The position numbers were made by a program, and so were the translations under genes. Shown here in pieces: positions 6,355 to 23,188 of a stretch of 38,900 nt of DNA. The stretch's first letter is position 1; each line of letters starts with the position of its first letter. The notes beneath the pieces are model-generated. The model saw only the letters and a program-made list of their open reading frames with translations, did no database searches and was not told where the DNA came from. This stretch comes from Halovivax asiaticus JCM 14624 (GTDB taxonomy: Archaea > Halobacteriota > Halobacteria > Halobacteriales > Natrialbaceae). The stretch lies in contig NZ_AOIQ01000024.1 in NCBI RefSeq assembly GCF_000337515.1, positions 1 through 38,900 of the forward strand, given 5' to 3'.

Positions 6355-7539
6355 TCAGGCGCCGGTCTCTTTTTCCTTCTCTGCGCGGCCACGCGCCATG
6401 AGGAACATGGCAACGTGCTCTGGTACTGACTGCTCACCTTCCGTGACTGTAAAGGTGTCGCCACCGAGTTCGACGGGGCCGCCGCGGTCGACCGTCACCC
6501 GGATCTCGTGGCCGGTGAACGTCTCGGGGACGGCGTCGACGAGCGGGTCGAAGTCGGTGAGGTCCGCGCGATCGATCCGCCGCACCGCGAGTGAGCTGCC
6601 GCCGTGGAGGCTCCCGGGGAGCCTGATGAGCCGGTTGGTGTCCGTCGTCACCGGCTCGTCGATGGGTGCGTTCTCCGCCTCGACCGTTCGCTCGGCGAAG
6701 CGCTGGGCGAGCTGGGCGATCGCGGTGTGGACCGTGACGTTCCCGGCCTCGATCGCCGCCCGGTTGTTCGTCGCCGCGTTCAACGCGGCCGTCGCCTTTC
6801 CTTCCCCGATCCCGTCGAACGACTGGAGTCGTTCGAGAGCAGCTTCCTCGTCCATCGCCAGCAGGTCGTCGAGGAAGGAAACGAAGCGATCGTGCAGTCG
6901 TTCTCCCCAGCCGCCGCTGGTTCGCAGGATGCGACGCTCGGTCGGCGTTTCCCGCCCCATTCCCGCGACGGTCTCCGTCTCGATGAGGTGGTCGAACTCG
7001 AGGCCGATACCGCGGACGTAATCGACGATTTCGCGACGGTGTTCGCGTTCGAGGTGGCGGATCCGCTCGTCTCTGACGTGGACGTGATACCCGCGACCGC
7101 CGGAGAAGACGATCTCCATGTTCTCGAACCCGAAGTCGTCTTCGAGGAAGTCGAGGAGGCGACGGAGGGCATCCTTGCACGTGGCGAGCATCTCGGCGTA
7201 GGAATCCTCGCCGAGGGTGACCCCTGGGAGGTGGTCGGCGTCAAGGTCGAAGACGAGATCCGATCGCTGCCATCCCTTCTCGTCCATGGAATTGGCACCT
7301 GGGTCCTCGTACAGTCCGGCGGAGTAGTAGACGTGTCGCGGGCGCTCGCGCTCCAGAAAGGTCTCGATGTCCCCGATGTCGAGGACGGATCGATGTCGAA
7401 TCATCCGCGTGTCGGGGCCGGTCGTCCAGGGGATGTACCCCCACTCACGGGACTCGGGGGCGGGCGGCGGCGTAATCTCGGCCCGCCGGTAGTAATCCCT
7501 GAACCGGCCGCGAAGGTACGCTCGCGTTCGCTCCTCCAT
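6355..7539 (-). CDS. priS: DNA primase catalytic (small) subunit PriS
   Basis: A 394-residue archaeo-eukaryotic primase small subunit that makes RNA/DNA primers with PriL. The catalytic acidic motif DLDAD is at about 98-102 in LVFDLDADHLPGV; the second motif SGGRGYHVHV is at about 146-155; a third conserved region RLPGSLHGGSSLAV lies around residue 310. The N-terminal MEERTRAYLRGRFRDYYRRA is typical. A TATA-like AGTTATA on the minus strand at 7566-7572, about 30 bases before the ATG, supports the start. It is first in a two-gene operon with gins; the large subunit priL is not in this window. Confidence 0.97.
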   Translation of the reverse strand: MEERTRAYLRGRFRDYYRRAEITPPPAPESREWGYIPWTTGPDTRMIRHRSVLDIGDIETFLERERPRHVYYSAGLYEDPGANSMDEKGWQRSDLVFDLDADHLPGVTLGEDSYAEMLATCKDALRRLLDFLEDDFGFENMEIVFSGGRGYHVHVRDERIRHLEREHRREIVDYVRGIGLEFDHLIETETVAGMGRETPTERRILRTSGGWGERLHDRFVSFLDDLLAMDEEAALERLQSFDGIGEGKATAALNAATNNRAAIEAGNVTVHTAIAQLAQRFAERTVEAENAPIDEPVTTDTNRLIRLPGSLHGGSSLAVRRIDRADLTDFDPLVDAVPETFTGHEIRVTVDRGGPVELGGDTFTVTEGEQSVPEHVAMFLMARGRAEKEKETGA

Positions 7540-7565
7540 TCGCCACTCACTCGCTCGCGGTGGCG

Positions 7566-7572
7566 TATAACT
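7566..7572 (-). promoter_or_regulatory. TATA-like box for priS-gins
   Basis: AGTTATA on the minus strand, about 27-33 bases before the priS ATG, consistent with a leaderless operon transcript. Confidence 0.5.
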
Positions 7573-7711
7573 GTATTGGAGGCGACGCCGCCGACGGAAC
7601 GGCGAGTCCCGCCTCGATTCGGGCAGTCTTGGCGTGCATCGGTCGGGTATCGGCGATTCGGCGTGCTCGGCAGGCGATCCAGACTCGTTTTTCCACTGCC
7701 CACTTCTCCGT

Positions 7712-11360: not shown

Positions 11361-11622
11361 AGCCAAATGAGTTGTCTTCAGCGACGTGGGATGGTTCGCC
11401 GTTTTGAACGCTCTCCGCTCCTTCTGTCTCCCGATGATGACGAAAAGGACCTTCATTCTCGGTTGAGTGACGACGCTCGCCGGCGCCGGACTGGAACGGG
11501 TCACGAGATGTACGATCGTCCCGGTACTGGGGCACACTCGAGGCGACTGACGACCGGTTACTCTCCGAGGGTGACCGATGCTAACCGAGCCGAGACGCTG
11601 TGGATGGTCGAAATCGTCGACT

Positions 11623-11686
11623 CGGTCGAGCAGCGAGTGCTCGTTCGCGATGCGCTCGCCCTGGTAGGGATGGTTCGGCGTTTCGT
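11623..11686 (-). repeat. Inverted copy of the 5' part of rps4
   Basis: Read on the minus strand, 11623-11681 is identical over 59 bases to rps4 positions 16368-16426, and the match extends to 11686 / 16363 with one mismatch. It would encode [19 protein letters not shown] and most of the next codon, residues 12-30 of S4. Flanking sequence on both sides is unrelated, so it is a sharply bounded fragment and not a diverged second gene. Nearly perfect preservation in a non-coding interval suggests a recent event, gene conversion from rps4, or a function such as an antisense RNA. Confidence 0.9.
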
Positions 11687-11839
11687 GACATGGGTGTGAT
11701 TCGGGTTCTATTGGACGGCGAGTACATGGACGGACTGCTCCGAGTAGGAAGTGAACGACACGGACGTCGACTCGCTCACTCGGCCGAGTGATCGGGAAGG
11801 AGTCCCGCACCCGGCATCTCCTGTCAACCGATAGAAGGA

Positions 11840-11846
11840 CTTTAGG
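11840..11846 (+). promoter_or_regulatory. TATA-like box for the DUF4129-DUF58-DUF7519 operon
   Basis: CTTTAGG centred about 30 bases before the ATG at 11873; it supports that start over the in-frame GTG at 11858. Confidence 0.45.
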
Positions 11847-11872
11847 CGGTCTGGAATGTGGCTGGGACTATC

Positions 11873-12763
11873 ATGCGATTCGACGCCGTGTTCAAGGGGA
11901 GCCTCACGGTTCTCGGGATCGCTGCGGTCGCTCTCGTGGCGGCTATTCTCGACTCGCCGGTGGATCTCTCCGGTGAGAGTGGCAGCGGGCCGGTGAGCAC
12001 CCAGTCCGGAGCGGTCGATGCGATCGCAATCCCCGAAATGCCGCCTTTCGTCCAGGTGTTGTTTCTCGTTGTGGCAACGCTCCTGGCGGGATTGGTAGTG
12101 CTTCACATTATCGACGAACCGATGGAAAACCTCCTGACCGTGGTCGGGGTCGTGCTCGGGGCAACCCTTATCCTTGGTATATACACGCTGTTCCACGTGA
12201 TAGGGGCTGGGCCAGGGTTTCCGACCGAAGGGACCAGTTGGACGGGTGCCGAACTTACCGGTCCGACGAGCAACTCGGGCGGGAACGTAAACGCGGCGAC
12301 GCTCGTCGTCACTACGCTCGGCGGTTTCTTTGTGGTCTTCGTGGGGCTGGTACTCTATCTGCGTTCGAAAGGAACTCCGTCGAACGAGGTGACGGCCAAC
12401 CGGTCACCCCTCGACGGCGACGTATCCGCGGCAGCGGTCGGGGCGGCTGCGGGCCGTGCGGCGACACAGATCGAATCTGCCTCGCAGCAGGATACGGAAA
12501 ACGAGATTTATCGCGCCTGGAAAGAGATGACGACACTCCTGCCGGTCGAGTCACCGCAGACGACGACACCCCGGGAATTCGAGGCGGCTGCCGTCGAAGT
12601 CGGGCTGGAACGGGCCGACGTCTCGGACCTGACCGAACTGTTCGAGGCTGTCCGCTACGGAACGGAGGAGGTAACGCACGCCCGCGAGGAGCAGGCGATC
12701 GACATCCTTCGGCGGATCGAATCCACGTATGCGGTTGACGACGAGAGCGAGGTCGATTCGTGA
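11873..12763 (+). CDS. Membrane protein with DUF4129-like C-terminal domain
   Basis: A 296-residue protein with about four membrane segments: residues 9-28, 60-82, 87-110 and 142-167. A soluble C-terminal part (about 205-285) has EIYRAWKEMTTLLPVE, TPREFEAAAVEVGLERADV and LTELFEAVRYGTEEVTHARE; this matches the DUF4129 pattern found near transglutaminase-like and DUF58 proteins. Function is unknown; the family usually sits in MoxR-associated membrane clusters thought to act on cell-surface or envelope assembly. Its stop overlaps the start of the DUF58 gene, so the two are translationally coupled. The start at 11873 rests on the TATA-like box at 11840-11846. Confidence 0.88.
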   Translation: MRFDAVFKGSLTVLGIAAVALVAAILDSPVDLSGESGSGPVSTQSGAVDAIAIPEMPPFVQVLFLVVATLLAGLVVLHIIDEPMENLLTVVGVVLGATLILGIYTLFHVIGAGPGFPTEGTSWTGAELTGPTSNSGGNVNAATLVVTTLGGFFVVFVGLVLYLRSKGTPSNEVTANRSPLDGDVSAAAVGAAAGRAATQIESASQQDTENEIYRAWKEMTTLLPVESPQTTTPREFEAAAVEVGLERADVSDLTELFEAVRYGTEEVTHAREEQAIDILRRIESTYAVDDESEVDS

Positions 12764-15816: not shown

Positions 15817-16335
15817 ATGAGCGAGGAAACACCGCAAGAACCCGAAGACGACGAAGACATTCAGTACTTCGTTCGAATCGGTCAGACAGACTTAGACGGC
15901 ACGAAGTCCGTCGAACGCGCGCTGACCGGACTCGACGGGATCGGCCGACGGACGGCCCGACTCGTCGCGAGCGAAGCTGCTGTCGACCGAACGGCGACGT
16001 TCGGTACACTCGAGCAAGACACGATCGACGACATCGTTTCACTCGTCGAATCACTCGGAGACGACCTCCCCGACTGGTTGAACAACCGTCCGGGCGACTT
16101 CTACACGGGCGAGACGGAACATATCGTCGGCAACGATCTCGGTCTCACCCGCCAGCAGGACATCAACCGGATGAAGATGATCGACTCCTACAAGGGCGCC
16201 CGCCACAAGCGCGGCCAGAAGGTCCGCGGACAGCGAACGAAGTCCACCGGTCGTACCGAAGGGACCATCGGCGTCAACGTCGAGGAGATCCGCGAAGAGC
16301 AGGCCGAAGAGGCCGCCGAGGAGGATGACGAATAA
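15817..16335 (+). CDS. rps13: 30S ribosomal protein S13 (uS13)
   Basis: A 172-residue S13, which contacts the P-site tRNA and bridges to the large subunit. Family features are FVRIGQTDLDGTKSVERAL, the helix-hairpin-helix LDGIGRRTARLVASEAAVD, DLPDWLNNRPGDFYTGE and the C-terminal basic YKGARHKRGQKVRGQRTKST tail that reaches the tRNA. The acidic N-terminus (TPQEPEDDEDIQ) and C-terminal Glu/Asp tail are haloarchaeal. Its stop TAA shares the A of the rps4 ATG (TAATG), the first link of the rps13-rps4-rps11-rpoD order seen across archaea. Confidence 0.98.
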   Translation: MSEETPQEPEDDEDIQYFVRIGQTDLDGTKSVERALTGLDGIGRRTARLVASEAAVDRTATFGTLEQDTIDDIVSLVESLGDDLPDWLNNRPGDFYTGETEHIVGNDLGLTRQQDINRMKMIDSYKGARHKRGQKVRGQRTKSTGRTEGTIGVNVEEIREEQAEEAAEEDDE

Positions 16336-16856
16336 TGCCGCTCGGCACCGATACTAAGCAGTACGAGACGCCGAACCATCCCTACCAGGGCGAGCGCATC
16401 GCGAACGAGCACTCGCTGCTCGACCGCTACGGCCTCGCTAACAAAGAAGAACTCTGGCGAGCGCAGTCGGAACTTCGTTCGTACCGACGCGAGTCCCGGG
16501 ACCTGCTCGGACAGGCCCAGGGCGACGCGACGGTCCAGCGACGCTCCGAAGAGTTCCTCGGCCGACTCAAGCGAGTTGGCATTCTCGACGAAGCGGAAGG
16601 CCTCGGTGACGTCCTCGGGCTCGAGATCGAGGATGTCCTCGAACGCCGACTCCAGACGGTCGTCTACCGCAAGGGACTGGCGAACACGCCACAGCAGGCG
16701 CGCCAGTTCATTATCCACGGCCACGTCCGGATCGGTGACCGGCGCACACGCGTCCCGTCGTACGTCGTCGACGTCGACGAGGAGGACGACGTGGCGTTCG
16801 ACGAGACCAGCCCGCTGGCGGACGAACTGCACCCGGAACGTGCGGAGGGTCAATAA
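16335..16856 (+). CDS. rps4: 30S ribosomal protein S4 (uS4)
   Basis: A 173-residue S4, a primary 16S-rRNA-binding assembly protein. It shows the N-terminal [17 protein letters not shown], the helical core with [20 protein letters not shown], and the S4 RNA-binding domain (about 105-150) with [36 protein letters not shown] and [11 protein letters not shown]. The start overlaps the rps13 stop. Codons 12-30 are duplicated almost perfectly, inverted, at 11623-11686. In bacteria S4 regulates its own operon; whether haloarchaeal S4 does is not known to me. Confidence 0.98.
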
Positions 16857-16857
16857 T

Positions 16858-17247
16858 ATGAGTCAGGACGACGACAAGTGGGGGGTCGCCCACGTGCACG
16901 CATCGTTCAACAACACCATCATGACCGTGACCGACCTCACGGGCGCGGAGACGATCGCGAAGTCCTCCGGCGGGACTGCGGTCAAGCAGAACCGCGACGA
17001 GGCGTCACCCTACGCAGCCATGCAGATGGCCGAGGGCGTCGCCGAGGAGGTCAAGGCTGCGGGTATCACCGGTCTCCACGTCCGCGTTCGCGGGCCCGGC
17101 GGCAACCTGCAGAAGTCCCCCGGTCCCGGTGCGCAGGCGACGATCCGCGCGCTCGCCCGCTCCGGTATCGAGATCGGTCGCATCGAGGACGTCACGCCGA
17201 TCCCGCACGACGGATCGCGCGCACCGAAAGGCAAGGGCGGATTCTAG
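16858..17247 (+). CDS. rps11: 30S ribosomal protein S11 (uS11)
   Basis: A 129-residue S11 of standard length, forming part of the platform near the 3' end of 16S rRNA. Motifs are [58 protein letters not shown] and the conserved basic C-terminus [17 protein letters not shown]. The frame is open upstream inside rps4, but the family begins with MSQDDDKWG at 16858, two bases after the rps4 stop. The ribosome probably passes directly from rps4. Confidence 0.98.
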
Positions 17248-21062: not shown

Positions 21063-21853
21063 CAGAGAACGATACATCACAGGAGGGCCTCGACGCCGCC
21101 GAGGAGGAGATCGACGAGGAGCCAGCCGAGGGGGCTGGCCCCGCCGCCGAATCCGAGGAGGTCACCGAGGCCGACGACGCACAGCCCGCCGCAGACGACG
21201 CTGCGGACGAACCCGATACCGAGGAGGCAGACGACGGCCCCACGCTCGACGACGACGTCATGAGCGACGAGGACGTCGACCTGCTCATCCCGGTCGAGGA
21301 CTATCTGGGCGCCGGTGTTCACATTGGTACCCAGCAGAAGACGTCGGACATGGAGCGGTTCATCCACCGCGTCCGAACCGACGGTCTGTACGTCCTCGAC
21401 GTCTCGATGACCGACGGCCGGATTCGCACGGCTGCGGACTTCCTCGAGAACTACGAGCCGGAGCAGATCCTGGTCACCTCGTCCCGTCAGTACGGCCGAT
21501 TCCCGGCCGAGAAGTTCGCCGAGGCCGTCGGCGCACGCGCCCGAACGGGCCGGTTTATCCCCGGGACGCTGACCAACCCGAAGTACGATGGCTACATCGA
21601 ACCCGACGTGCTCGTCGTCACGGACCCGATCGGCGACGCGCAGGCCGTCAAGGAGGCCATCACGGTCGGGATTCCGGTCATTGCGATGTGTGACTCGAAC
21701 AACCAGACCGGTAACGTCGACCTCGTCGTCCCGACGAACAACAAGGGTCGCAAGGCCCTCTCGGTCGTCTACTGGCTGCTCGCGAACGAGGTCCTCGACC
21801 GCCGCGGCGCGGAGCCGTCCTACGCGCTCGAGGACTTCGAGAGCATGGTGTAG
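21059..21853 (+). CDS. rps2: 30S ribosomal protein S2 (uS2) with an acidic N-terminal extension
   Basis: A 264-residue S2. The S2 core starts near residue 70 with [19 protein letters not shown] and shows [54 protein letters not shown] and [20 protein letters not shown]. The first roughly 65 residues are an almost purely Glu/Asp/Ala extension, [20 protein letters not shown] and onward, likely disordered. Extended S2 N-termini are known in haloarchaea, but length varies. The gene ends the tRNA-Ser to rps2 cluster. Confidence 0.97.
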
Positions 21854-21981
21854 GTTCGGTATTGTCCTTTCAGACGTTTTCACGCCGATGAGCGGCGGCA
21901 CCCTCCGACGACCGCGTGACGTCCTCGATGCGACCGAACTCGACAGAAAGAGTTACCTGTCGAACGGCTCGACTGTGGCGT

Positions 21982-22110
21982 ATGAGCGATTTCCTGTACG
22001 AGTTCGACGAGGAAGCCATTCCGCCGGTCGTCGCACTGGCAGCAGCCGCGCTGGCTGGAGTCTTCGCGCTCGGATTCGTGTACAAGCTTCTCACCGTCGT
22101 CGTCCTGTAA
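21982..22110 (+). CDS. Single-span membrane microprotein
   Basis: A 42-residue protein starting MSDFLYEFDEEAIPPVV, followed by one hydrophobic helix (about residues 15-41) with VALAAAALAGVFALGFVYKL. The ATG at 21982 is favoured because the upstream in-frame residues are Arg/Thr/Ser-rich and not protein-like. It lies between rps2 and mvk, and both flanking gaps are short. A function cannot be inferred. Its acidic head and clean helix argue for a real gene rather than chance. Confidence 0.6.
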   Translation: MSDFLYEFDEEAIPPVVALAAAALAGVFALGFVYKLLTVVVL

Positions 22111-22201: not shown

Positions 22202-23188
22202 ATGACTCGTTCGAGCGCTCCCGGGAAGATTTACCTCTTCGGTGAGCATGCGGTCGTTTACGGCGAACCGGCGGTCCCGTGCGCGATCGAGCGGCGGGCC
22301 CGGGTCGGCGTCGAGCCGCGCGACGATGCGACGTTGCGTGTCCACTCCGACGATCTCAGTCTAGATGGCTTTACCGTCGAGTACGCGGGCTCGACCGACG
22401 GAAAACCCGATATCGACGTCGCCGAGTCGCTCGTCGACGCCGCGATGGGATACGTCGACGAGGCGATTGCGCAGGTCCGCGAGGTGACCGGCGAGCCCGA
22501 CGCCGGATTCGACGTGACGATCGAGAGCGATATCCCACTGGGGGCGGGTCTGGGGTCGTCCGCGGCAGTCGTCGTCGCCGCGGTCGACGCGGCGACGCGT
22601 GCACTCGGCGTCGAACTCTCCACGGCGGAACTCGCCGAGCGCGCGTATCAGACCGAACTCGCGGTGCAGGAGGGTCAGGCCTCGCGAGCGGACACGTTCT
22701 GTTCGGCGACTGGCGGAGCCGTTCGCGTCGAAGGCTCCGACTGTCGGGCGATCGATGCACCCGACCTCCCGCTCGTGATCGGGTTCGACGGCGGCGCTGG
22801 GGATACCGGTGCACTCGTCGCAGGTGTTCGACAGCTTCGCGACGAGTACTCGTTCGCGGCGGACACGGTCGCATCGATCGGCGACATCGTACGGCAGGGT
22901 GAGACGGCGTTGGCCGACGGTGACGTCGCGGAACTCGGGCGGTTGATGGATTTCAACCACGGACTGCTGTCTGCGCTGGGCGTCTCCGGCCGCTCGCTCG
23001 ATTCGATGGTGTGGGCGGCACGCGAGGCCGGTGCGTTGGGCGCGAAGCTGACGGGTGCCGGCGGGGGTGGCTGCATCGTTGCACTGGACCCGACGCCGGA
23101 GACGGAGACGGCGTTGCGGTACTTACCCGGGTGTGAGGACGTGTTCCGCGCGGAACTGGCCGACGAGGGGGTGCGCCGCCTCGAATGA
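22202..23188 (+). CDS. mvk: Mevalonate kinase
   Basis: A 328-residue GHMP-family kinase that phosphorylates mevalonate to 5-phosphomevalonate. The N-terminal APGKIYLFGEHAVVYGEPAV, the P-loop IPLGAGLGSSAAVVVAA (about 111-126) and the C-terminal GAKLTGAGGGGCIVALDP are all present, with the catalytic Asp and Lys in the usual regions (VQEGQASRADTFCSATGG). In archaea the product supplies isoprenoids for membrane ether lipids. Its stop overlaps the ipk start by four bases, and GGPP synthase lies a few genes on, so much of the lipid-precursor route is local. Confidence 0.97.
   Translation: MTRSSAPGKIYLFGEHAVVYGEPAVPCAIERRARVGVEPRDDATLRVHSDDLSLDGFTVEYAGSTDGKPDIDVAESLVDAAMGYVDEAIAQVREVTGEPDAGFDVTIESDIPLGAGLGSSAAVVVAAVDAATRALGVELSTAELAERAYQTELAVQEGQASRADTFCSATGGAVRVEGSDCRAIDAPDLPLVIGFDGGAGDTGALVAGVRQLRDEYSFAADTVASIGDIVRQGETALADGDVAELGRLMDFNHGLLSALGVSGRSLDSMVWAAREAGALGAKLTGAGGGGCIVALDPTPETETALRYLPGCEDVFRAELADEGVRRLE

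Follow-up and report, generated by a model that had tools for sequence, protein, structure and literature searches.

The moaA locus upstream of the ribosomal operon

The window, that is, the whole stretch of DNA analysed, is 38.9 kb long, contains no N, and makes up the whole of contig C24 in a draft genome of 24 contigs (3.24 Mb), haloarchaeal by its gene content and by its relatives. A gap between two intact genes, encoding a BAT-type regulator and a DUF4129 membrane protein, carries a copy, in inverted orientation, of the beginning of rps4. The features of the gap, its neighbours, and the donor gene are collected in Table 1.

When the upstream regions of rps4 were retrieved from 31 relatives and compared, all four congeners were found to have an intact moaA, encoding GTP 3',8-cyclase, at the corresponding position ahead of the rps13-rps4-rps11 operon, and the gene was intact in 22 of the 31 stretches overall (the four congeners and 18 further genomes). 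The gene was identified by a TIGR02668 match above cut-off and by its Radical_SAM and Mob_synth_C domains. G001 has the gene order of the window, regulator-moaA-DUF4129, with the DUF4129 gene in the same place and orientation. Judged by rps4 and by the regulator, G003 is the nearest relative: its rps4 differs at 5 of 522 bases, and its orthologue of the regulator (96% identical as protein) lies beside an intact moaA.

In the window, remnants of moaA lie in order between the same neighbours, interrupted by three deletions and an in-frame stop, as expected of a pseudogene. In translation, what is left can still be recognised as MoaA, broken by a stop and by changes of frame; the tblastn match of 11423-11501 ends in MMTKRTFILG*VTTLAGAGLERVT, and the 11602-11630 part is matched in about 20 further relatives. 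When the copy and its flanks were used to search relatives, rps4 itself was hit, and many genomes also gave weaker matches to this same part, at a distance of 1-7 kb on the upstream side of rps4. The remnants were placed by blastn and block alignment; in a global MAFFT alignment some of their parts ended up in the wrong place. An ORF at 11571-11699 (MTDANRAETLWMVEIVDSVEQ...) was considered as a small conserved gene and rejected, since its conserved part is moaA and its remainder is antisense to rps4. The preliminary description had placed the copy in a non-coding gap between unrelated flanks. The flanks are indeed unrelated to rps4, but both are moaA, and the gap is a moaA pseudogene, a setting that had been missed.

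Table 1. Features of the moaA locus and of the rps4 donor. Positions refer to the window; coordinates in relatives are given under evidence.
Feature	Position	Strand	Evidence and remarks
HTH_10/BAT-type regulator, intact left neighbour, divergent from moaA	10677-11342	-	Pfam PF04967 (E=2.2e-17), PF15915
Distal upstream leader of former moaA	11343-11422 (overall alignment from 11333)	+	86% to G003 L038 (oriented) 6622-6701; block alignment
Deletion D1, ~399 bp	after 11422		G003 6702-7100; lost: proximal promoter, start codon, radical-SAM cysteines (CxxxCxxC part)
moaA remnant, about codons 92-117, in-frame stop	11423-11501	+	62/79 to G003 7101-7179; tblastn
Deletion D2, ~310 bp	after 11501		G003 7180-7489
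moaA remnant, about codons 221-267, ends ...MVEIVDSVE at joint	11502-11630	+	blastn to G003 7492-7630
Left joint microhomology CGGTCGAG, 8 bp, common to moaA and rps4	11623-11630		CCGGTCGAG in G003 and G001 moaA
Deletion D3, 125 bp	after 11630		lost: C-terminal CxxC...C motif
Unambiguous rps4 filler, inverted	11631-11676	-	46/46 identical to rps4
Right joint microhomology GGCGT, 5 bp	11677-11681		imperfect extension to 11686, GGCGTyTCGT; ancestral moaA bases reconstructed from orthologues
moaA remnant, 3' end (AFRDMGVIRVLLDGEYM...)	11677-11800	+	blastn 71% to G001 over 11677-11856; tblastn
DUF4129 membrane protein, intact right neighbour	11873-12763	+	Pfam PF13559 (E=1.8e-9); 63% to G001
rps4 (uS4), donor gene, intact	16335-16856	+	NCBIfam NF003139 and TIGR01018, both above cut-off
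Donor stretch inside rps4	16368-16426	+	59 bp identical to copy; same bases identical in G003 rps4

The inverted rps4 copy and its joints

The inverted pair 11623-11686 / 16363-16426 consists of 64-nt arms that are complementary at 63 of 64 positions and lie 4676 nt apart, and it is by far the top-scoring inverted pair of the window. The near-perfect 64-bp copy with one mismatch reported in the preliminary description was thus confirmed, as were its 59 identical bases, which form an exact copy (59/59; 11623-11681 corresponding to 16368-16426 of rps4). The lone mismatch, a T at 11682 where rps4 has C on this strand, is the moaA base and belongs to a Phe codon in most orthologues, the majority of which read GGCGTTTCG or GGCGTTCCG in this region. 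The mismatch and the four matching bases beyond it most plausibly belong to moaA rather than rps4, and the mismatch would then mark the joint, so that the truly copied segment is 59/59 identical. The short word GGGATGGTTCG at 11388-11398, whose recurrence in the copy had been noted as perhaps due to chance, lies in ancestral moaA leader sequence, where G003 reads AAGATGGTTCG, and its resemblance to the copy indeed looks like chance.

The position of the copy coincides exactly with the third gap, where 46 bp of rps4 in inverted orientation stand in place of 125 bp of moaA. The properties of a templated insertion were found here in three respects: (i) the insert can be traced to nearby DNA, of which it is a copy, and the donor is intact; (ii) both joints show microhomology (8 and 5 bp), the right one depending on the reconstructed ancestor; and (iii) the ancestral site is known, as moaA is intact in all congeners. 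For the right joint, the ancestral moaA bases were taken from the majority of orthologues; G003 differs there, and its GGCATATCG would make the overlap shorter. Among random joints between moaA and the window, microhomology of at least 8 bp occurred in 0.047% and of at least 5 bp in 0.98%, or jointly in about 5e-6.

Age and possible function of the patch

The filler showed no changes at its 46 positions, whereas the ungapped moaA remnants had changed at 16 of 97 sites that are near-invariant among orthologues (Fisher p=0.0015), suggesting that the filler is probably younger than the onset of moaA decay. The donor bases of rps4 are the same in G003, and the donor has thus remained unchanged since the lineages of the window and G003 split. 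The perfect third-codon identity of the copy follows from recency, and selection is not needed to account for it. These results support the recent duplication proposed in the preliminary description, with the moaA pseudogene as its target and filling of a deletion joint as its likely mechanism.

The plus strand of the copy is perfectly complementary over 59 nt to the start of the rps4 mRNA, as a functional antisense RNA or decoy acting on this mRNA would be, with the identity kept by selection or gene conversion. The copy was absent from all relatives examined, including the four congeners, which have intact moaA instead, and neither a conserved RNA nor repeated gene conversion from rps4, both considered previously, gains support from the related genomes. 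Transcription antisense to rps4 is likewise unsupported, as the proximal moaA promoter region with its TATA-like word has been removed by deletion, and an Rfam scan of the window returned only tRNAs, with no known structured RNA at 11623-11686. Recency also accounts for the identity, and we consider a functional antisense RNA extremely unlikely; the patch probably has no function of its own and is probably inconsequential for the cell. The inversion that the repeat had been thought to allow was not seen either: the 4.7-kb segment is oriented just as it is in G001, and the gene order there excludes inversion as the present state.

Surveys for comparable inverted pairs

We surveyed linked inverted pairs in a sample comprising a further 400 kb of the same genome and 418 kb from relatives. 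In the 400 kb, the sole linked (<10 kb) inverted match was a pair belonging to a transposon-like repeat family. Setting aside tRNA genes, transposon-like and other repeats, and one pair in locus L054, no pair comparable to the rps4 copy was found in either sample, and the absence of such a pair from the 400 kb argues that the match is not due to chance. The pair set aside, in L054 of genome G017 (rps4 on the plus strand), is a perfect 113-bp inverted repeat at positions 2312 and 3881, 1.57 kb apart. A search for an exact 36-base pattern of the copy in the genome contigs of other species, a set that possibly did not include near relatives, gave no match.

The survey also bears on whether the patch could be an artefact of whole-genome amplification or a chimera of assembly. 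Amplification chimeras are mostly inverted, join segments mostly less than 10 kb apart, and do so at short complementary stretches (PMC1855051), all of which fits the orientation, the 4.7-kb distance, and the microhomology seen here, in a genome that is a draft. A chimera, however, has one joint, whereas here the path goes out of moaA and comes back into it with the orientation unchanged. Moreover, the host gene carries two further deletions, a stop, and changes at about 16% of near-invariant sites; an intact substitute moaA is present in the genome; and the assembly, free of N in the window, holds no similar linked inverted pair in the 400 kb sampled. An artefact is therefore very improbable.

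A second inverted match (29/30) links 21914-21943 of the window to 17168-17197 in rps11, also about 4.7 kb from its source, and sits in the gap between a gene ending at 21853 and a gene at 22202. G003 has a diverged version of it, and G001 and G004 seemingly lack it. The match could reflect either chance or an earlier patching event of this type; it came to light post hoc and was not counted as support. The same gap also holds a small ORF (MSDFLYEFDEEAIPPVVALAAAALAGVFALGFVYKLLTVVVL) at 21984-22110, which is conserved at the DNA level in G003, G001, and G004, and whose product looks like a one-helix membrane peptide. The gene at 22202 probably encodes a mevalonate kinase.

A substitute moaA elsewhere in the genome

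The genome contains one other full-strength MoaA match, an intact gene (L069, G000 C6:118846-119853) flanked by two moeA-like genes, so named from their translations. The relatives searched have a single strong MoaA match each. In the tree, the moaA genes of the four congeners formed one clade (98/99), and the C6 gene fell outside the family, beside that of G031 from another family (98/91); its branch is long and its exact position unsure. The C6 gene is thus probably a xenologous replacement, descended outside the genus. The presence of an intact moaA of different descent would explain how the old gene could decay, and in the simplest history the acquired moaA replaced the old one, which then decayed.

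Discussion

The inverted rps4 copy is very probably the scar of a templated insertion in a decaying moaA pseudogene, and polymerase template switching in vivo appears to be the best explanation of the patch. The moaA upstream of rps13-rps4-rps11 would have fallen out of selection and lost pieces, leaving the C6 gene as the only intact one. The geometry of the patch is what a two-step template switch, from moaA to rps4 and back, would produce. In a single later event, possibly started by a break or a stalled fork in the dying gene, a 3' end of moaA terminating in CGGTCGAG would have paired with the identical 8-base word of rps4, at a distance of 4.7 kb, and been extended by about 51 nt with rps4 as template. 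The extended strand would then have detached at GGCGT, re-annealed to GGCGT in moaA 125 bp further on, and been sealed.

The template in this scheme is taken to be DNA. The filler could also have been copied from rps4 mRNA, giving a patch made on an RNA template or from cDNA: the plus strand of moaA that ends in CGGTCGAG is complementary to CUCGACCG of the mRNA, extension towards the mRNA 5' end would give the filler observed, and the rps4 mRNA is expected to be abundant. The sequence holds nothing that sets an mRNA template apart from a DNA template, and we regard copying from mRNA as improbable. As for a wider role of template switching, it is rather doubtful that haloarchaea mend breaks by kilobase-scale template switching that leaves inverted patches, and that such repair has been at work repeatedly near this ribosomal operon, with the rps11 match at 21914-21943 as a second case.

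The locus thus provides a natural example, resolved to the base, of templated repair in an archaeon, in which donor, target, and ancestral state are all known. Examples of this sort are seldom met, since in most cases the empty site has not survived. The locus also warns against taking a near-perfect antisense copy of a conserved gene for regulatory RNA, as such a copy can be repair filler.

In the literature searched, no comparable templated insertion from an archaeon came to light. The part of a study of Haloferax volcanii drawn on here describes Ku-independent microhomology-mediated end joining (MMEJ) with overlaps of 3-5 bp and deletions of 6-977 bp (PMC2700283). It resembles the present case in concerning a haloarchaeon and deletions with short microhomology, but the overlaps lie at simple deletions, and templated filler is not described in that part. 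The archaeal primase PriSL, according to the section of the report used (PMC12019639), anneals strands at a few bases and extends them across discontinuous templates, which makes it a candidate enzyme for the switch; the work was on Saccharolobus, and that section does not describe haloarchaea or fillers of 50 nt. In quasipalindrome template-switch mutations of E. coli, as presented in the portion cited (PMC7202029), the polymerase moves to an inverted template and back, as proposed here, but on the scale of a hairpin within an imperfect inverted repeat and not over 4.7 kb. Templated insertions by MMBIR were described in yeast and human, with templates sought within 100 bp, whereas the present template lies 4.7 kb away in a haloarchaeon; nevertheless, their stated signature is inverted copies near the template, flanked by microhomology (PMC8421209), and the patch in moaA is likewise short, inverted relative to a nearby template, and bounded by microhomology at its joints.
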